A model generated the notes under the pieces. The model saw nothing but the letters and a program-made list of their open reading frames with translations, had not been told where the DNA came from and did not search any database. Positions 2,252-33,257 of a stretch of DNA of 64,000 nucleotides are shown here, piece by piece (the first letter of the stretch is position 1; the number at the start of each line of letters is the position of its first letter). A program made the translations under genes and the position numbers. Origin of the DNA: a virus; the IMG/VR virus record IMGVR_UViG_3300035086_000100, positions 1 through 64,000 of that record. One strand, given 5' to 3'.

Positions 2252-5200
2252 TCATCTCGGCGAGTACGCGGACCGGTAAGCAGATTTCGACGCTGCCGCC
2301 CCGAGGGCTTCGGCGACCCCGTCAGCGGTCATCCCGGCGTTGTCGTAGACGGCCCCGATGAGCCGGGAGATCAGCCCGGCCACGTCGCTGAGGGACGCTC
2401 CCTGCGGCTGGCTGCCGCTGTCCCTGGTCAGGTGCTCGGGCCTGCCGGTGCGGTTGTCCATGAGCGTGATCCCGGGCGGGAGCCAGCCGCCGTTGTCGAA
2501 CGACCGGAGACGGGGGTTCGGCCCGGCCAGCCCCCGCCCCCCGGTCGAGGCACTGGGAGGCACCCCGAAGCCGGTGTTGCCGCCCGAACCGGAGATCAGC
2601 GTGCCCAGGGCGGGGTCGGCGGCGTTCATCATCGTCCCGTTGCCGATACTCAGCCCGACGTGGGTCGCGCCGCCGCCGGTTCCGTAGAAGAACACGAGTG
2701 CCGCCGGCTGGTCGCCGCTGGGCTGCGCCCACAACTGCTGTTCCTGCGACGTACGGGGCGCGGGAATCCCGAAATGGTGATAGACGAATGACGTGTAGCC
2801 GCTGTTGTGGACTACCAGGCCGTTGGCCACGAAGTTGTGCGTGCCGTCGACCGTGATGTCGTAGGTATCGGCCTCGCCGAGCGGCGTCACCGACAGCAGC
2901 GGCTCGGTCTCGAACCGGCCCTGCTCCAGCCTCACCAGCAGGTCGCCGGGCCGCAGGGAGTCAACCTGAATCCACGCGTGCCCGTCGCCGGGCGCGTACT
3001 CCCCGCCAGGGCGGATCACCAGGAACGGGTGATTGCCGCTGGCCTTCAGTTCCCGCGATGCCGTCGCCACCAGGTACGTCATCTGGAAGCGCGGCTCGGA
3101 GCGCCTGAGAACGCGCCTGAGGACCGGCTTTCCCTGGTCCCAGGTGATGACCGTGTCCCCCGCTGTCACGCTCACGATCGGCTTGAGGCCGTCAGCGGTG
3201 CGCACGAGGGAGTCCCCGGTCAGGCAGCAGTCCCAGCCTCCGGGTGTCGTGCCCCCCCACACGTACGGGGTGCCGAGGAACTGCTTGGCGTACTCCAGGA
3301 TCGCCAGCGGCCCCCCGGTAGCATTGCCGAGGCCGCCCAGCAGTTGCGCCCGCGCGGCGGCGATGGACTTGCGGAGAGCGGCTGCGGCTGCCGTGGCGTC
3401 AGCCGACTCGATCATCGACTGGGTTGCGCGCCATTCCCGCGCATCGAACGCGCCGAGACCGTCCGGGGTGCCCGAGAAGCGGGCCGCGAGCCCTCCGCCG
3501 GCCATCTTCGGGAACCGCTTCTCGTTGACCGCGTCCATGAACGCGATGCCGTAATGGGCGACTGCCGCCGCGTTCTGCACGTACTCCTTGTTCGACAGCC
3601 GGAACAGGCCCGCCGTGTCGGAGGTGCCGGTGCCGGGACCGGTGATCAGGCCGCCCGTGGCCGCGCCGCCGTGCAGCTTCCCGGTCCCCCCGCCCACGGA
3701 GATGGTGCCGGCGTTGGTGATCGTGAACGAGCCGGAGCCCTTGACGGAGATCGTGACGGCCTTGGAGTGCACGCCGGCGATCTGGCCGATCAGCTTGTCG
3801 ACCTTCGCCGCGGCCTCTTTCGCGGTGTCCCCGGCGGCGATGAAGTCCCTGATGAGCTGCGCGCGTGCCGCAGCCTTCCCCGCTGCGGTGCTGCCGTTCT
3901 TCTCCACGCCGGCGGTGTAGGTGTCGACCAGCTTGTTGGCCTGCTGAGCGCTAAGGCCCTGGTGCACGAAGTCGGCGACCATCTGCGCCCGGAAATGCTG
4001 CGCGGCATCCGACGCGGTGCCGTTGTGCGCGACGGCCAGGGTGTAGGCGTCGGTGAGGGTTTTCGCCTTCTTGCTGTTCAGCGCCGACGTGGTGAGGTCG
4101 GCGGCGAACTGCGCCCGCGGGATGTGCCCGGCCTGGATCACCGCGGTCAGCTGTTTCGTGGCCTTGGCGAACGCGGCCTGGGCCAGCGCGGCGGCCATCG
4201 ACGACGCTTTCTTTTCCGCCGCCGCCAGGGCCGTTATCTGATCCCCCGCGCCGCGCAGGTTCTTCAGGCCTAGCGCCTTGCCGATATCGGCGTTGCTGCT
4301 GAGCGTCTTGTGGAGCTGATCGGCCAGTTTCCGGTACCCTGCGATGTTGGTGCCGGTCGCCTTGTCTGCCTGAGCCTGCTCGGCGACGAACTTGCCGGCC
4401 TTGCCGGTGACGTTGTCGAAGGCGTTGGCCAGCGTGGCGATGGCGAACGCCCCGGCGGCAGCGAAGTTGACCACCGGGATGAGCGCCGAAACCCCGCCGA
4501 GAATCCTCGCGCCGCCACCCTCTGCCGCCCTGGCAGCACCTCCGCCCGCAGCCCCCGCCGCGCCTTCAGCGCCCGCGACGCCCTTGCCGGCGATGCCGCC
4601 CTCGGCCCCGGCACCCACCATCGTCTCGGCGGCCCGCTGCATGTTCACCGATGCCGTGAGCATCGTGTCCCCGGCGGCCTGCATCGCGGCTGCGCCGCTG
4701 ACCTTGGTGGTGAAGTCGAGGCTGCCGCCGGGCGTGAGCAGGTTCCACAGCTTGGCGAGGCCCTGGCCGACGAAGTTCACCCCGACCGAGATGATCTTGC
4801 GGCCGAAACTGAACTTGGAGATCAGCAGCAGCGAGGCCGCCAGGTCGGCTACCGGCTGCACGAAGCCGGGCGGCAACTTGGCGATCAGGCCGAAGAACCC
4901 GGTCAGCAGCCGGATCTCGGCCCCGCCCGCAGGACCCCCGAGAAGCCCCCCGCCGAGCGTTTTCAGCGCCCCGCCGACCGCCAGCAGCAGATGCCCGACC
5001 ACCGGGCCGTTGTCATGCACCCAGGCCAGGAACTTCTGGATGTCCGCCCGCGACGCATCGGACTGGGACCACGTCAGGAACGAGGTTCCCAGGTGGGTGA
5101 TGCCCTGGTCCACGTCGCCGATCAGGGGCCTGAACTGGGGCAGCAAGATGATGAAGCCGTGGAAGAAGTTCAGCAGCGCCCCGCCGCCGGCGTTGATGAC

Positions 5201-6055
5201 GCTGCTTCCCTCGGTGCCGATGAACTTCGCGAACGCAGAGAACGCGGGCGAGGCCACCAGCGACGCGAACGCCGACCCCAGCGACGACACGACCTGCGAC
5301 ACGTCAGAGACGACGGGTTTCGCGAACGACATGGCCTTGGTGATCCCGGCCATCCACGGCGCCACCGACGCGGCGATCACCGGGGTCAGGGACTTCTTGA
5401 CCGCCGTCCACTGATCCGACATGGCGCCGAGCTGCTTCGACAGCGCGATCTGGGCCGGTGACATGTTGGCGTAGGCCAGGTTGATGGCCTTCTGCTCGGC
5501 CAGGTACGCCGACGACTTCGACGCCCCCGCCGCGATGGCCGCGTTGTACCGTTCCTGCGCGAGCTGGACCTTGGACGCCGCCGAGGACGCCTGCCCGATC
5601 ACCGACTTGGCGACCGAGCCGTACGCCGCGAGGGCGATCCCGCCGGTTGCCAGCGCCGACCCGAACGCCACCGCCGTGCCGGTAGCCGCGCCGAGGACCG
5701 TCATCGCGGCGGGAAGCGCCAGGATCGCCGGGCCGAGCCAGGCCGGGGCCTGCGACAGGCCGCCGGCGATCTTGACGCCGATGGTCTGGTCGGAGAACTT
5801 CTTCAGTTCCGCGATCTTGGCTTTGGCCCTGGCGGTGTCCAGGTCGACGTTGCCCTTGACGACGGGCTTCTTGCGCTTCAGTTTCTCGATCTCGGCGTCG
5901 GCCTTGGCCGGGTCCGCGCTGATCGGGACCGTGACACCTTCGCGGGCGAACTTGTCGGCGTCCGCCCTGGCGGCCCTCAGCTCGTCGTTGAACGGCGTCC
6001 TGTCCAGCGTGAGTCTTGCCTCGACGTCACCTGCGTTAAAAGCCGTGGGACTCAC
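2252..6055 (-). CDS. Tape measure protein with NlpC/P60 domain, interrupted by a mini-intein
   Basis: This 1267-residue precursor (about 1126 after splicing) is the longest gene of the tail cluster and follows the tail chaperones, as tape measure genes do. It has an N-terminal helical part, hydrophobic segments near residues 105-150 and 340-410, Ala-rich helical stretches, and a C-terminal NlpC/P60 peptidase domain starting near residue 920 (KQFLGTPYVWGG). The conserved Asp-Cys-Ser-Gly motif is split: Cys943 is the catalytic Cys, residues 944-1084 are an intein, and the domain resumes with SGYTSFVYHHFGI and the catalytic His near 1132 (HVGLSIGNG). The spliced protein would set tail length and cut peptidoglycan during DNA entry. 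The start overlaps the upstream chaperone frame by 4 bp. Confidence 0.93.
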   Translation of the reverse strand: MSPTAFNAGDVEARLTLDRTPFNDELRAARADADKFAREGVTVPISADPAKADAEIEKLKRKKPVVKGNVDLDTARAKAKIAELKKFSDQTIGVKIAGGLSQAPAWLGPAILALPAAMTVLGAATGTAVAFGSALATGGIALAAYGSVAKSVIGQASSAASKVQLAQERYNAAIAAGASKSSAYLAEQKAINLAYANMSPAQIALSKQLGAMSDQWTAVKKSLTPVIAASVAPWMAGITKAMSFAKPVVSDVSQVVSSLGSAFASLVASPAFSAFAKFIGTEGSSVINAGGGALLNFFHGFIILLPQFRPLIGDVDQGITHLGTSFLTWSQSDASRADIQKFLAWVHDNGPVVGHLLLAVGGALKTLGGGLLGGPAGGAEIRLLTGFFGLIAKLPPGFVQPVADLAASLLLISKFSFGRKIISVGVNFVGQGLAKLWNLLTPGGSLDFTTKVSGAAAMQAAGDTMLTASVNMQRAAETMVGAGAEGGIAGKGVAGAEGAAGAAGGGAARAAEGGGARILGGVSALIPVVNFAAAGAFAIATLANAFDNVTGKAGKFVAEQAQADKATGTNIAGYRKLADQLHKTLSSNADIGKALGLKNLRGAGDQITALAAAEKKASSMAAALAQAAFAKATKQLTAVIQAGHIPRAQFAADLTTSALNSKKAKTLTDAYTLAVAHNGTASDAAQHFRAQMVADFVHQGLSAQQANKLVDTYTAGVEKNGSTAAGKAAARAQLIRDFIAAGDTAKEAAAKVDKLIGQIAGVHSKAVTISVKGSGSFTITNAGTISVGGGTGKLHGGAATGGLITGPGTGTSDTAGLFRLSNKEYVQNAAAVAHYGIAFMDAVNEKRFPKMAGGGLAARFSGTPDGLGAFDAREWRATQSMIESADATAAAAALRKSIAAARAQLLGGLGNATGGPLAILEYAKQFLGTPYVWGGTTPGGWDCCLTGDSLVRTADGLKPIVSVTAGDTVITWDQGKPVLRRVLRRSEPRFQMTYLVATASRELKASGNHPFLVIRPGGEYAPGDGHAWIQVDSLRPGDLLVRLEQGRFETEPLLSVTPLGEADTYDITVDGTHNFVANGLVVHNSGYTSFVYHHFGIPAPRTSQEQQLWAQPSGDQPAALVFFYGTGGGATHVGLSIGNGTMMNAADPALGTLISGSGGNTGFGVPPSASTGGRGLAGPNPRLRSFDNGGWLPPGITLMDNRTGRPEHLTRDSGSQPQGASLSDVAGLISRLIGAVYDNAGMTADGVAEALGAAASKSAYRSAYSPR
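2804..3226 (-). other. Mini-intein (141 aa) inside the tape measure NlpC/P60 domain
   Basis: The insertion has Cys1 in block A (CLTGDSLVRTADG), a block B with GNHPFLV, a block F with TYDITVDGTHNFVANG, a C-terminal His-Asn (VVHN) and Ser as the +1 residue. There is no room for a homing endonuclease domain. Removing it joins extein residues ...GGWDC and SGYTSF..., which restores the invariant DCSG motif of NlpC/P60 peptidases exactly. The boundaries are therefore supported both by intein motifs and by the host domain. Until splicing, the peptidase active site is split, so the enzyme should be inactive (inference). Confidence 0.93.
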
Positions 6056-6441
6056 CCCCCGGCGAGTTCCGCCCTCATCGCCAGCAGGTCAATAACGTCC
6101 GCTCCGGTATCCGCTGTCCGCTGCGTGATCCCGGCCTTCTCCGCCAGTTCCTCGCCGGACTCGGGCAACTCGATCAGGCCCTCGGCGGCGAATCCTTCGA
6201 CGTGGTTCCGCTGCTCCCACCATTCGAGGGAGTCCCATTCGGCCGTGCCGTAGTTGAGGTGGCGTCTCGCCAGATGCAGGATCAGCCGGCGGCTGGAGAC
6301 CGCACTATCGCTAGAGGCGGACTGCCAGCGCCGGTCACGGCTTCCGGGTCCATCACCTCTTTCATCAGCCACTCGACGAACGCGGCCATGATGCGGTGCG
6401 GCAGCAGCAGCAGGATCTCCGTCGACGGGTCGCCGGAGCAC
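6052..6441 (-). CDS. Tail assembly chaperone, T-like frame (probable frameshift extension)
   Basis: In siphoviruses the gene before the tape measure is usually made as gpG and, by programmed frameshift, as a gpG-T fusion. This frame is -1 relative to the upstream chaperone ORF, overlaps its 3' end and ends 4 bp into the tape measure start. Only the part after about 6340 has natural composition (e.g. HLNYGTAEWDSLEWWEQRN, then ELPESGEELAEKAGI); upstream it is an Arg-rich shadow of gpG. No good start codon lies near the real coding part, which favours translation by frameshift. I could not identify a canonical heptameric slippery site in the overlap. The GTG at 6441 is only the formal start. Confidence 0.6.
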   Translation of the reverse strand: MLRRPVDGDPAAAAAPHHGRVRRVADERGDGPGSRDRRWQSASSDSAVSSRRLILHLARRHLNYGTAEWDSLEWWEQRNHVEGFAAEGLIELPESGEELAEKAGITQRTADTGADVIDLLAMRAELAGG

Positions 6442-6788
6442 AGCTTGGAGAACATGGCGGCCTCGCGCCTGCGGGTGGCGTCGCCCTTCTTCGCGTCCGC
6501 GCTGGCCAGTGCGGCGAGCTGGGCGTCTGTCGCGTCCGGGCCGGGTTCGGCTGCCTCGCCGGCCGCATCCGCGGTTTCCGCGTCCGCTACAGCCGCCCTG
6601 GCTTCCCTCCGGAGCCGCTGCATCTCCCTGGCTGATGCCTGGAGGTATGCCTGCACCTGGAGGGAGGTGGGCTCCCGGATCGTGCCCTTCGCCTCGGCTA
6701 GCTCCCTGATGTTGTTCGGAGGGCCGGCCAGCGCCGAAAAATCGTAGTCAAGTCTCTCAAGCACCGTTCCGGCGTTGAAGGTGGCCAC
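6282..6788 (-). CDS. Tail assembly chaperone (gpG-like)
   Basis: This 168-residue protein starts MATFNAGTVLERLDYDFS and contains an Ala/Glu-rich helical middle and a C-terminal stretch PSTEILLLLPHRIMAAF. It has no enzymatic motif. Its identity rests on position, between the major tail protein and the tape measure, and on the overlapping -1 frame that continues the protein. Chaperones of this class coat the tape measure during tail assembly. An HNH gene (8562-9200) and a plus-strand cassette (6862-8394) separate it from the major tail gene, which is unusual. Confidence 0.7.
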   Translation of the reverse strand: MATFNAGTVLERLDYDFSALAGPPNNIRELAEAKGTIREPTSLQVQAYLQASAREMQRLRREARAAVADAETADAAGEAAEPGPDATDAQLAALASADAKKGDATRRREAAMFSKLCSGDPSTEILLLLPHRIMAAFVEWLMKEVMDPEAVTGAGSPPLAIVRSPAAG

Positions 6789-6803
6789 GGCATCCTTTCC
6801 GGA

Positions 6804-6844
6804 TTGACTTGTGGTGCTACCACAGATAGAGTGGTGCTACCACC
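6804..6844 (+). promoter_or_regulatory. Promoter with two tandem GTGGT-GCT-ACCAC palindromes
   Basis: A -35 box TTGACT (6804-6809) is followed after exactly 17 bp by a -10 box TAGAGT (6827-6832). One perfect 13-bp palindrome GTGGTGCTACCAC lies in the spacer (6811-6823) and an identical copy covers the end of the -10 and the start region (6831-6843). The copies are 20 bp apart, i.e. on the same helix face. A repressor bound here would block RNA polymerase. It drives the plus-strand cassette 6862-8394; a related operator stands before the gene at 53117. Confidence 0.8.
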
Positions 6845-6861
6845 GAATGAGGGAGCACCGG

Positions 6862-7272
6862 ATGACAGCCGCGAGGGCACAGAAGAACATGGACGCCGCA
6901 CTGGTCCTGCTCGCCGCCCGCTATGAGCGCGTCGCGATGCACGCGGTCAAGGCCACACAGGACGTACCGGCTGACGGCGACGACTACGCCGATGCGGATG
7001 GCCACGAGATCGCCGCACAGTTGGGGATCTGGAACATCCGCGCCATCTCAGGCGGCCGGGTCACGATCCGCAAGACCGGGATCACGCTTCCCTGCGGCAA
7101 CGGCTACTCAGTAACGATCGACCTTGCAGGGAACGACACCTACACCGTGCGCCGGATCTTCACCCGCGCCGGCAAGGTCTGGGTCAAGGGCGAGCGCACC
7201 GACGTTTACGCCGATCAGGTCGGCGAGGTTGCCTACCGCGCCGGGATGTTCCGCGACGTGTGGGCAGCCTGA
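6862..7272 (+). CDS. Hypothetical protein, first gene of a moron cassette
   Basis: I do not recognise this 136-residue protein. The ATG at 6862 is chosen because GGGAG stands 9 bp upstream and the strong promoter at 6804-6832 would place the transcript start near 6839, downstream of earlier in-frame starts. It has a helical N-terminus (MDAALVLLAARYERV), an acidic stretch (DGDDYADADGHEIA) and a beta-rich C-terminal half (RVTIRKTGITLP, TIDLAGNDTYTVRR). The stop TGA overlaps the ATG of the next gene, so the two are translationally coupled. It opposes the surrounding tail genes. Confidence 0.75.
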   Translation: MTAARAQKNMDAALVLLAARYERVAMHAVKATQDVPADGDDYADADGHEIAAQLGIWNIRAISGGRVTIRKTGITLPCGNGYSVTIDLAGNDTYTVRRIFTRAGKVWVKGERTDVYADQVGEVAYRAGMFRDVWAA

Positions 7273-7514
7273 TGGGCGACCGCCACAAGCACGGCCCGAT
7301 CTCCTTCCGGCCAACGGAGGGGGACCGGGCATGGCTTCACGACTACGCCGCCGAGACCGGTCGGCCAGTGCGCGCCGTACTCAAGGAAGCGCTGGCCGAG
7401 TACCGGCTACACCGCAGCGTCAACGGCAAGATCGTCATCCACAAGGACGGCGATCCCCGGAACAACAACCCCGCCAACCTGGAGATCAGGGAAGCACCAG
7501 AGGAGAAGCAGTGA
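7272..7514 (+). CDS. Ribbon-helix-helix-like DNA-binding protein with HNH-like tail
   Basis: The 80-residue product has a beta strand (GPISFRPT), helix 1 (GDRAWLHDYAAETG) and helix 2 (PVRAVLKEALAEYRL), the layout of small RHH repressors. It then carries IHKDGDPRNNNPANLEI, which looks like the second half of an HNH motif, without the rest of a nuclease. It starts with TGATG coupling to the gene before it. A paralogous RHH gene occupies the same second position in the cassette at 53117-54614, whose promoter has a related operator, so this protein is a good candidate for the cassette's autorepressor (inference). Confidence 0.7.
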   Translation: MGDRHKHGPISFRPTEGDRAWLHDYAAETGRPVRAVLKEALAEYRLHRSVNGKIVIHKDGDPRNNNPANLEIREAPEEKQ

Positions 7515-9356: not shown

Positions 9357-9965
9357 CTATGAAGTCGCGATTGCCGTCAAATCCACCCACACGATGGACG
9401 AGAAGGCACAAGTGGCACCAAAGGTACAGGGGTATAGCCTCTGGTTCGCCGCGCGCCGGTAGGACGTGGCCACCGTGCCGCTGGACATGACTCCCGGGAT
9501 GCTGAGCACCCGCGCGAACCCGAACTGGTTCTTGCCGATGACGGCACAGGCAAGCGTCGGGAAGTTGAGCGACATCGACAAAACGCTCTTGCCAGGCTGG
9601 CCAGCCCCCGGCGCGGTGACCGCTATGCTGCCCGCTGCCCCGTAAGCTACGTTCAGGTTTGTCAGGGTCTCTTCCGAGAAGTTAAAGCTGACCTCGAAGG
9701 TCGCTTTGTCCACTATCTTCGCTACTGGTGTAGGTTGTTCCTCAATACTGATATCGACCACCGAAGGCGTCCATGTCAGGGTAACTCCCGCGTCGGTCGC
9801 GCCGATGTAGGACCACCCGCCGCCAGTCCACGACGACCCGACGCCCAGGTTCTGGTCCGAGGGAAGGGCCGTGTTCAGGGGCGCGGTGAACACCAGGCCG
9901 AGCCCGTAAAGCACGTTGGTGGTGGTGACTGCGGGAGGCGTGTAGAGAAGCGGTGCGCCGGCCAT
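9357..9965 (-). CDS. Major tail tube protein
   Basis: The 202-residue protein (MAGAPLLYTPPAVTTT...) matches the actinophage major tail protein type: a central ATDAGVTLTWTPSVVDISIE stretch and beta-rich sequence throughout. Length and position, between the tail terminator and the chaperones, fit. It would polymerise into the tail tube. GAAGGAG-like purines are weak upstream; the ATG at 9965 follows AAGGAGACCCGACC. Confidence 0.85.
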   Translation of the reverse strand: MAGAPLLYTPPAVTTTNVLYGLGLVFTAPLNTALPSDQNLGVGSSWTGGGWSYIGATDAGVTLTWTPSVVDISIEEQPTPVAKIVDKATFEVSFNFSEETLTNLNVAYGAAGSIAVTAPGAGQPGKSVLSMSLNFPTLACAVIGKNQFGFARVLSIPGVMSSGTVATSYRRAANQRLYPCTFGATCAFSSIVWVDLTAIATS

Positions 9966-30422: not shown

Positions 30423-33257
30423 CTAGCGCCACGAGTGCACGTTCGGCCTTGACGGCCTTCCGTCGTCATCCTGGGGAGCGAACGAGTCCACGCCCCACCC
30501 GTTGTCCCGCTGGCCGTAATCGGTTCCCTGCTGCTGCTGAGTTGCCCGCCTGTGACGCGGGTCGGAGGGGCGGGACAGTTCGTCCAGCTCGGCCTGCAGG
30601 GCGTAGCGGCGGGCACCGGCAGCACGGGGGGTGCCGGAGAGGTCGAAGTCGTGATCGAGGAACGGCGTTATCGCCCAGACCAGGCTATCGAGCCTGTCCG
30701 GCGATCTTTCGCCCGCAGCGCCAGTAAACGTGACGCATTGATCCTCTAGTTCCACGTGCGGGCCGTTGACGTGCCGCACGATGTCCCGCTCGTACAGTGC
30801 CGCTACCGGCTCGGCGCGGGTCCGCTTCGCCTGCGATGCGTGCACCACCTGATACGGAACCGACACGCCCAGGTCGCGCATGACCTGCCGCAACGTCGCT
30901 TCAAGGTAGGCGCCGCCGTGGTTCTTCTCCAGGATGACCCGGCCGTCCCAGCGTTCGGCCACCCGGACGACGCGCTTCAGGAACGGGACCGCGCCGATCC
31001 GGCCGCCCCACGACTCAGGGACGTACAGCCGCCGGTCCCCGCCGATCCCCGCGACGGTGTAGGCGCACTCGTCGGAATCCTCGGTGCCGTCAGAGGGGTC
31101 AGCGCCCACCGTGACCTGATGAAGCCGCCCGTCAGCGCCGCCGGGGACCTCCGGGACCTGGATCGACTCCAGCAGATCCCTTGACCAGAGAGCGTTCTCG
31201 ACGTCGTCGAGTAGTTCGCCCTCAAGCTCCTGGCGTTCCAGCCGCGTGCCCGTGGCTCTCGCCACGACTGATCGGTAGAACGTCTCCGACAGGTTCGCGA
31301 GGTTGTCGGCCGTCCTGAGCCTGCGGACCACCACGCCCGGTTCGTCGCGCAGCAAGCGCCGGATCAGCTTCGCCGCAGGCCGGGAGATCTTCGGGGTTCC
31401 GTCCGCGATGATCCGCGAGATTCCCTTGCGGACCGCGTAGGCGATCGACTCATCCCACGCCGTCGCCCACTTCAGCCACAGGCCGATCTCACTGCACCAG
31501 CACGCTGTCAGGTTCTTGCCCTGCACCCGCAGCGCGCCGTCGTTCGCCGAGTCGACGTAGATGACGTGACCAGACCGCAAGCCGATCTCGCCATAGGACC
31601 GGTGAGCGTAGGCCACGGTCCGGCTCGTGCCGTTCTTGACCTCGCCCGCACTGGTCCCCAGCGCTGCGAGAAACCCGCTCTCACCCTCGACGCAGACTGT
31701 CCATGCGTCCCGGTAGGTCGGGGCCACGATTGCCCAGTCGGCGGGTTCCGGCGTGTCCTGGATGAGCTGGGCGAGGCCCTGAGCGGAACTCCGGGTGTTG
31801 TGAGTCGGAACCATCGACTCGCCAGCGAGGTACATGTGATGCGGAGAGTCGACCGTCAGGCAGCGCATGGCCACGGGGTCGATCCGCTCAGCGCTAACGA
31901 TCATGCGGTGGTAGTGGCGGAACGCCTGCGCAGTGGGCATCTTGCAGCGGGCAAGTTTGCGGGACAGCCTGAATACGGGAATCGTCGGCCGCCAGGTGAC
32001 GCGCCACTTCGGCCCGCAGTCGCGCCCGTACAGCGTTGCCCGCCCCTCGGCGCAGACGGGCTTCTGGCCCAGCGACCGCGCCAGTTCGACCACGGCGTCA
32101 GCAAGGGGCTTGCAGGTGCTGGTGAACTCGACAGCGCAGCGTCGGGCGTCGGCACTGCCGTCTGTGTCCATCAGACCTTGCAGCAGCGCCAGCCGCTGAC
32201 TAGCGGACGCCCGGAGATACTCGGACGGAACGTGTTTGCTGCCGATCACGCCCAACTTGCGCAGCCGTCCGGTAAGGCCGGCGGGGTCGCGGGCATACGC
32301 CTGGCCGCCGATGAGGTAGCCCGGACACCGGTCGCCGTTCGGGCGCAACGGCTTGACGGTCTCGCCGCAAGCGCGGATGTGATCCAGGATCTCGGGGTCG
32401 GCCGAGGTGAGCGTGGCGTTGACCGATGATCCGTCGCCGAGCCAGCAGCCCAGGACGTAGGGATGCACGGGAAGGCCGGCTTCGGGCAGGTCAAGCGCAC
32501 CGCACACCGGAACCGAGTGGTTCGTGTCGCCTCGCGCGCCGAACGTGAGCGTGTCGGCAATCTGCTGCGTGGTGCGGATGCGCGGGCCGGGTGAGTCCGG
32601 GAACACTAGCGGCTCGGTCTTGCGCTCGACATAGGCGCCTGCGGTCAGGTGCCTGATCAGGCCGGTCCGGGATAGCCCGGTCTGCCGTATGACCTGATCG
32701 ACCGTTGCACCGCCTGCGCGGAGCGCCAGTGCGGGCTCTACCTGCTGGCGGGTCAGGTAGTTGTTGCCGCCGGGCAGTGGCCGCCGCCTTCGCCACGCCG
32801 GCCAGTCGTCGGGCAGGCGGGATGAGTCGTCATAGGGGGAGCGGAGAAACTCCTTGCGCTCGGCATGCGTCCACGTCACCCACTGGTGATCCGAGCACGC
32901 GTCAATGAACGTGCCGTCCGAGAACCGCAGCCGGTAGGCCACCTTCGGGATGTCATCGAACGTCGCCGTGACCCGGCAGATCCGCCCTGCTTCGTCGAAG
33001 ACTTCGTCGCCTGCGTTGATCTCGCCTAGTTTCGCCCAGCCGCGAGGCGTGGGAATGGGGGTAGCCACATCAAGTAGCTTACCGGCCCCTCTGCCGCCCT
33101 GATAATAAACGACGCGCCAGTCGCCCTCGGGCAGGAGCTGATCGGGCCGGGCGGTTCTCAGCCACTCCTTCTGAGGGTCCGCATGCACTCGCTTCCAGGC
33201 CCGCAGTTCAGCGAGTAGCCGCAGCTTCTCCGGAGGCGCCTGATGGATCACTGGCAC
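30423..33257 (-). CDS. terL: Terminase large subunit interrupted by an intein in Walker A
   Basis: The 944-residue precursor gives a ~517-residue terminase after removal of residues 61-487. The joined sequence GGRGAGK + TRSSAQG restores the P-loop. C-terminal to the intein come the ATPase segment (DWAIVAPTYRDAWTVCVEGE), the RNase H-like nuclease (VTVGADPSDGTEDSDECAYT) and the C-terminal ERSPDRLDSLVWAITPFLDH. It packages DNA into procapsids through the portal. The start overlaps the small-terminase-like gene by 50 bp. Packaging ATPase should be inactive before splicing. Confidence 0.93.
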   Translation of the reverse strand: MPVIHQAPPEKLRLLAELRAWKRVHADPQKEWLRTARPDQLLPEGDWRVVYYQGGRGAGKLLDVATPIPTPRGWAKLGEINAGDEVFDEAGRICRVTATFDDIPKVAYRLRFSDGTFIDACSDHQWVTWTHAERKEFLRSPYDDSSRLPDDWPAWRRRRPLPGGNNYLTRQQVEPALALRAGGATVDQVIRQTGLSRTGLIRHLTAGAYVERKTEPLVFPDSPGPRIRTTQQIADTLTFGARGDTNHSVPVCGALDLPEAGLPVHPYVLGCWLGDGSSVNATLTSADPEILDHIRACGETVKPLRPNGDRCPGYLIGGQAYARDPAGLTGRLRKLGVIGSKHVPSEYLRASASQRLALLQGLMDTDGSADARRCAVEFTSTCKPLADAVVELARSLGQKPVCAEGRATLYGRDCGPKWRVTWRPTIPVFRLSRKLARCKMPTAQAFRHYHRMIVSAERIDPVAMRCLTVDSPHHMYLAGESMVPTHNTRSSAQGLAQLIQDTPEPADWAIVAPTYRDAWTVCVEGESGFLAALGTSAGEVKNGTSRTVAYAHRSYGEIGLRSGHVIYVDSANDGALRVQGKNLTACWCSEIGLWLKWATAWDESIAYAVRKGISRIIADGTPKISRPAAKLIRRLLRDEPGVVVRRLRTADNLANLSETFYRSVVARATGTRLERQELEGELLDDVENALWSRDLLESIQVPEVPGGADGRLHQVTVGADPSDGTEDSDECAYTVAGIGGDRRLYVPESWGGRIGAVPFLKRVVRVAERWDGRVILEKNHGGAYLEATLRQVMRDLGVSVPYQVVHASQAKRTRAEPVAALYERDIVRHVNGPHVELEDQCVTFTGAAGERSPDRLDSLVWAITPFLDHDFDLSGTPRAAGARRYALQAELDELSRPSDPRHRRATQQQQGTDYGQRDNGWGVDSFAPQDDDGRPSRPNVHSWR
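31797..33077 (-). other. Class 3 intein with LAGLIDADG endonuclease (427 aa) in terL
   Basis: The intein begins with Leu (LLDVATPIPTPRGW), not Cys or Ser, and ends THN before Thr+1. It has the class 3 triplet: Trp126 in block B (SDHQW), Cys466 in block F (RCLTVDSPHHMYLAG) and Thr488 at +1. Two LAGLIDADG-like motifs are visible (YVLGCWLGDGSS; LLQGLMDTDGSAD), plus an HTH-like stretch (ATVDQVIRQTGLSRTGLIRH). Class 3 inteins are known from mycobacteriophage terminases such as Bethlehem gp51. Boundaries follow from exact repair of the Walker A motif. Confidence 0.92.

Follow-up and report, generated by a model that had tools for sequence, protein, structure and literature searches.

The tape measure gene of the window, by which we mean the whole 64,000-nucleotide stretch of viral DNA analysed here, contains a class 1-type mini-intein that splits WDC|SGYT, the catalytic cysteine motif of an NlpC/P60 hydrolase domain; profiles, the modelled fold, the splicing residues and uninterrupted relatives concur in confirming this. 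Judging from sequence comparisons, the insert very probably belongs to a homing intein allele that targets the conserved coding sequence around the NlpC/P60 catalytic cysteine in phages, and represents the form without an endonuclease. The best reading of the data is that this allele is rare, spread over diverse phages and found mostly in tape measure proteins.

The host protein and its NlpC/P60 domain

The open reading frame (ORF) at 2252–6055 on the minus strand encodes 1267 aa unspliced and 1126 aa if spliced. It was assigned to a tape measure protein because it matches phrog_3547 (tail length tape measure protein) at 2e-12 in a profile search, because of its gene position, and because of its close relative L001. 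Its surroundings are those of tail genes, with a major tail protein at 9357–9965. Ahead of it, two overlapping ORFs in different frames (6052–6788, minus strand) recall the arrangement in which frameshifting produces tail assembly chaperones, although the stretch scanned for a classical slippery heptamer contained none.

The NlpC/P60 domain of this protein lies in two parts. Its N-terminal part (3227–3307, minus strand; approximately residues 917–943), delimited by alignment with the uninterrupted relative L253, matches phrog_12508 and NlpC/P60 structures in the PDB, and its last residue is the catalytic Cys943 (3227–3229). The C-terminal part (2612–2803, minus strand; residues 1085–1148) contains the match to Pfam NLPC_P60, which spans residues 1085–1146 at 8.5e-10 when the whole protein is searched. 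Together with the phrog_3547 match, this agrees with the sequence-only reading, which had named a tape measure NlpC/P60 peptidase as the host. Alignment with relatives indicates that both Cys943 and the likely catalytic His1132 (2660–2662, minus strand), the latter in an HVG motif common to L001, L129 and L253, are retained; from the sequence, the third catalytic residue is probably Asn1144.

Boundaries, splicing residues and fold of the mini-intein

The intein occupies 2804–3226 on the minus strand (residues 944–1084, 141 aa), lacks an endonuclease domain, and reads CLTGDSLV...THNFVANGLVVHN between WDC and SGYT. Searched alone, it matches Pfam Intein_splicing with 42.3 bits (8.4e-11) against a cut-off of 35.8 bits, and the whole protein matches NCBIfam intein_Cterm at 7.9e-9. 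At the N-terminal boundary two Cys codons adjoin, and the DCSG of uninterrupted relatives is restored only if the second of them begins the intein. Its first residue and N-terminal nucleophile is therefore Cys944 (3224–3226, minus strand), and Cys stands at this position in all nine inteins known at the site. Block B has the Thr/Ser-x-x-His of class 1 inteins as S63-G-N-H66, with His66 (residue 1009; 3029–3031, minus strand) kept throughout the seven-sequence alignment A3, and block F has the D123 and H130 typical of class 1. The C-terminal splice residues of block G, His140-Asn141 (residues 1083–1084; 2804–2809, minus strand), are likewise HN in nine out of nine same-site inteins, and the +1 extein nucleophile, Ser1085 (2801–2803, minus strand), is the Ser of DCSG. 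The earlier claim of a 141-aa mini-intein with exactly these ends, placed so as to part the catalytic Cys943 from the Ser that follows it in DCSG, is thus upheld by the Pfam match, the splicing residues and a Hint-fold model.

This model was obtained with AlphaFold for residues 904–1167, using an alignment with four relatives, and gives the intein a Hint fold in which most blocks have pLDDT values of 76–95 and one loop is near 50. Its best Foldseek match is the NpuDnaB intein (4o1r; TM 0.89 to the target, rmsd 1.4 Å). Like DnaB-type class 1 mini-inteins (NpuDnaB 4o1r and SspDnaB 1mi8), it combines the Hint fold with Cys1, the block B His and a terminal His-Asn, but the host of those inteins is a replicative helicase and the identity is only about 27–29%. 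GC content and codon-position bias of the intein are near the values of its flanks, so composition gives no sign of recent arrival.

In the mechanism expected of such an element, the whole ORF would be translated with the intein included, Cys944 would attack the Cys943-Cys944 bond, the N-extein would move to Ser1085, Asn1084 would cyclise, and the exteins would be joined as WDC-SGYT, so that the mature tape measure protein would have 1126 aa and its NlpC/P60 site would be complete. We infer that the window intein splices efficiently and that it arrived by past homing. Being without an endonuclease, it would now be unable to home by itself, and it would persist because the domain survives only exact loss.

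Empty and occupied sites in relatives

The exact repair of the motif asserted by the sequence-only reading can be seen in L253, which reads WGGTTPAGWDC|SGFTSWVYHHFGI, the sequence obtained when residues 944–1084 are removed; its identity to the window is 72% in the N-terminal and 68% in the C-terminal part. Gordonia phage Birdsong (PP208930) also lacks an insert, and its tape measure gene matches that of Gordonia phage BearBQ, which has an intein at the site, at 97.3%. The two phages share one host strain, Gordonia terrae 3612, and when the 60-nt flanks of the BearBQ intein are joined, they match Birdsong at 120/120 positions. Kuwabara, ODay and mycobacteriophage Kashi_RDG1 read GDCSGA without an insert, L254 provides an uninterrupted L129-like site, and Streptomyces plasmid pFP4 an uninterrupted L099-like site. 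Had relatives carried the segment as an ordinary conserved domain, this would have spoken against an intein; in fact it is precisely absent, or a larger intein stands in its place. A search with the N-terminal half of the tape measure protein found no intein-free, near-identical version of the window phage; it found only L001, whose site is occupied by an intein, and L157, which has no visible NlpC/P60 domain.

Eight further inteins lie at the identical DC|SG peptide bond: that of BearBQ, found by tblastn against phage records, and those of L001, L020, L099, L164, L129, L176 and L022, found by searches of IMG/VR. Among the 50,697 phage records, BearBQ was the only same-site case seen. With the window included, the hosts are seven tape measure proteins, L020 and L164 being counted as such by similarity to L099 and by gene length, and two other NlpC/CHAP-type proteins, namely an NlpC/P60 plus Amidase_2 protein (L176/L123) and a small CHAP/NlpC-like protein (L022) whose CHAP match is under the cut-off. 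The search for insertions at the same residue of tape measure proteins, proposed along with the sequence-only reading, has therefore returned six further cases. LAGLIDADG_3 is above its cut-off in all seven large same-site inteins and is missing from the window copy and from L129, which is the second mini-intein at the site (134 aa, in a tape measure protein). In the L001 intein (6151–7440, 430 aa), block B is followed, ahead of the LAGLIDADG domain, by an extra helix-turn-helix stretch that resembles sigma-70 region 4 with a match under the cut-off.

An independent fixed-spacing pattern for the N side, run over IMG/VR, recovered no intein that the C-side searches had missed, from which we conclude that the allele is rare in IMG/VR. 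A C-side pattern, which misses some variants, gave nine matches in the genome collection, none of them in NlpC/P60, so that with this pattern neither a chromosome nor a prophage yielded a case. The DNA pattern WDCCxxGD had 12 matches in IMG/VR, all of which were judged to be due to chance and set aside.

Relationships of inteins and hosts

Inteins and hosts at this site differ in their relationships. The window and L001 share 81–84% identity in the adjoining extein sequence but 47% in the splicing domains, while the intein closest to that of the window is the one of L129 (53% identity), whose host domain is only 47–53% identical to the window's. The grouping of the window with L129 has tree support of 99/93 and that of these two with L001 96/93; a second supported group (96/97) unites BearBQ, L020, L099, L164 and L176, and L022 stands apart. 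A single clade of all nine same-site inteins is not rejected (p-AU 0.285), but the recurrence at this site may stem in part from independent invasions. Such discordance between inteins and their hosts is consistent with horizontal movement or replacement, the endonuclease putatively having been lost in the line of the window and L129. In addition, one and the same insertion site is found intein-plus in BearBQ and intein-minus in Birdsong with 0/120 nt differences, as is expected of a homing allele.

Inteins of mycobacteriophages typically sit in active centres, often following invariant residues (PMC5050341), because the homing target is conserved there and imperfect loss is penalised. The DC|SG site follows this active-centre pattern.

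Possible consequences for the hydrolase

It is plausible from the position of the intein that the predicted hydrolase is inactive until spliced. Both parts of the NlpC/P60 domain are of low confidence in the AlphaFold model of the precursor, but the uninterrupted L253, modelled alone from a shallow alignment, was equally poor; the precursor model therefore says nothing on activity before splicing, and we dropped it as proof of a disordered unspliced domain. In the weak L253 model a helix begins at the catalytic Cys, as this fold leads one to expect, and the intein would accordingly be placed at the N-terminal end of that helix. As for the role of the domain after splicing, the peptidoglycan hydrolase motif in the tape measure protein of phage TM4, which is dispensable for viability but helps to infect stationary cells (PMC1796659), suggests a possible parallel.

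Whether the intein serves the phage through its position is a separate matter. Redox state or a metal could gate splicing through the adjacent Cys943 and Cys944, so that the hydrolase would become competent only under certain conditions. This is conceivable because the two residues adjoin and because cysteine-based control, with splicing-block and extein cysteines as partners, is documented in other inteins (PMC6195587). A catalytic Cys at −1 adjoins Cys1 in all nine same-site inteins; however, this Cys is present for the host enzyme's own need, and its conservation is thus no evidence of gating. We consider such gating quite unlikely here, and it is also unlikely that the pair senses redox or metal, makes splicing conditional, and has led to retention of the endonuclease-less copies in the window and L129 for that use.

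The sequence-only reading had suggested instead that, through its active-site position, the intein could silence the tape measure hydrolase inside the producing cell as long as splicing has not taken place; on this view it would have been retained as a timer or safety catch. The intein does break up the catalytic motif itself, and the fact that the window and L129 copies have lost their endonuclease but kept their splicing residues could reflect retention for some host benefit. However, homing cycles would usually end in just this way, with the endonuclease gone and splicing kept, a cytoplasmic tape measure protein would have no access to peptidoglycan, and the full LAGLIDADG inteins at the same site in relatives are what is expected of a homing element. 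The idea is not needed to account for the intein, and it is weakened further by the existence of intein-free relatives, above all Birdsong, which infects the host strain of BearBQ and whose tape measure gene is 97% identical to the one in BearBQ, but also other relatives from Gordonia, mycobacterial and Streptomyces sources, and we regard it as very improbable. That the insert is a Hint-type autoprocessing domain of the bacterial intein-like or pretoxin kind, cutting the tape measure protein in two without splicing, is extremely improbable: Hint_2 and PT-HINT profiles match slightly under their cut-offs and the fold matches include intein-like and Hedgehog structures, but Cys1, the terminal His-Asn and the +1 Ser are all in place, the insert interrupts a conserved fold, its removal exactly recreates the motif that relatives have uninterrupted, and cleavage would wreck the NlpC/P60 domain.

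Comparison with known systems and significance

Most phage inteins described so far belong to enzymes of DNA metabolism and packaging. With the mini-intein in the window and its same-site counterparts, their range now includes cell-wall hydrolases and a tail protein of the virion, with insertion recurring at a single bond beside a catalytic Cys. Our search of the open-access literature brought up no tape measure protein or NlpC/P60 hydrolase reported to contain an intein; this is in line with the earlier statement that no established tape measure intein was known. A survey of mycobacteriophage inteins lists 13 host groups and leaves tape measure proteins unmentioned (PMC5050341). DC|SG thus appears to be a recurrent, undescribed insertion site, at which the mechanism is ordinary and the host protein new.

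Among the closest comparisons is BearBQ gp17 (OR253908.1, 13487–14602), a tape measure protein whose NlpC/P60-like part likewise has an intein at DC|SG (GDC|SGAMS). In contrast to the window copy, this intein is 372 aa long and has a LAGLIDADG domain, and the remainder of gp17 belongs to another family; GenBank annotates gp17 as a tape measure protein only, with no intein. L129 (IMG/VR 3300043698_000061) resembles the window in having a tape measure mini-intein, at WDC|SGF, but its tape measure protein is longer (2360-aa ORF) and its NlpC/P60 domain divergent, as noted above. Actinophage TerL inteins share with the inteins at DC|SG a location in active-site motifs and near-identical phages with and without the insert, but occupy another host protein and another site (PMC5050341, PMC3706429). 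Homing endonucleases in introns interrupt the tape measure genes of ICP1 and others (PMC10448857); these too are selfish elements in a tape measure gene, but are excised from RNA, whereas the window element would be removed from protein.

Since BearBQ and Birdsong grow on one laboratory host, homing, splicing before virion assembly, and any control of a tail-borne hydrolase are directly testable. Moreover, unannotated inteins lead to overestimated tape measure length and hence to overestimated predicted tail length.

Other inteins observed

The terminase large subunit of the window (30423–33257, minus strand) has a second, full-length intein in its Walker A motif (GGRGAGK|LLDV...VPTHN|T), with LAGLIDADG_3 at 32043–32198. 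Position 1 is neither Cys nor Ser, whereas a Trp, a Cys (RCLTVDS) and a +1 Thr stand where class 3 inteins have them; these residues suggest that the intein may be of class 3. In IMG/VR, the subtilase-like proteins L169 (4001–5017) and L183 (4001–4426) have an intein just ahead of the likely catalytic Ser (NGT|SGACPHVSG), which is 337 aa long in one version and, in a nearly identical mini version, 140 aa; this is a parallel to the tape measure case in that an intein lies in a hydrolase active site. Inteins, one of them a mini-intein, were also seen in L168, L170, L171, L174 and L187, in proteins that are portal-like as judged by their C-extein sequence.
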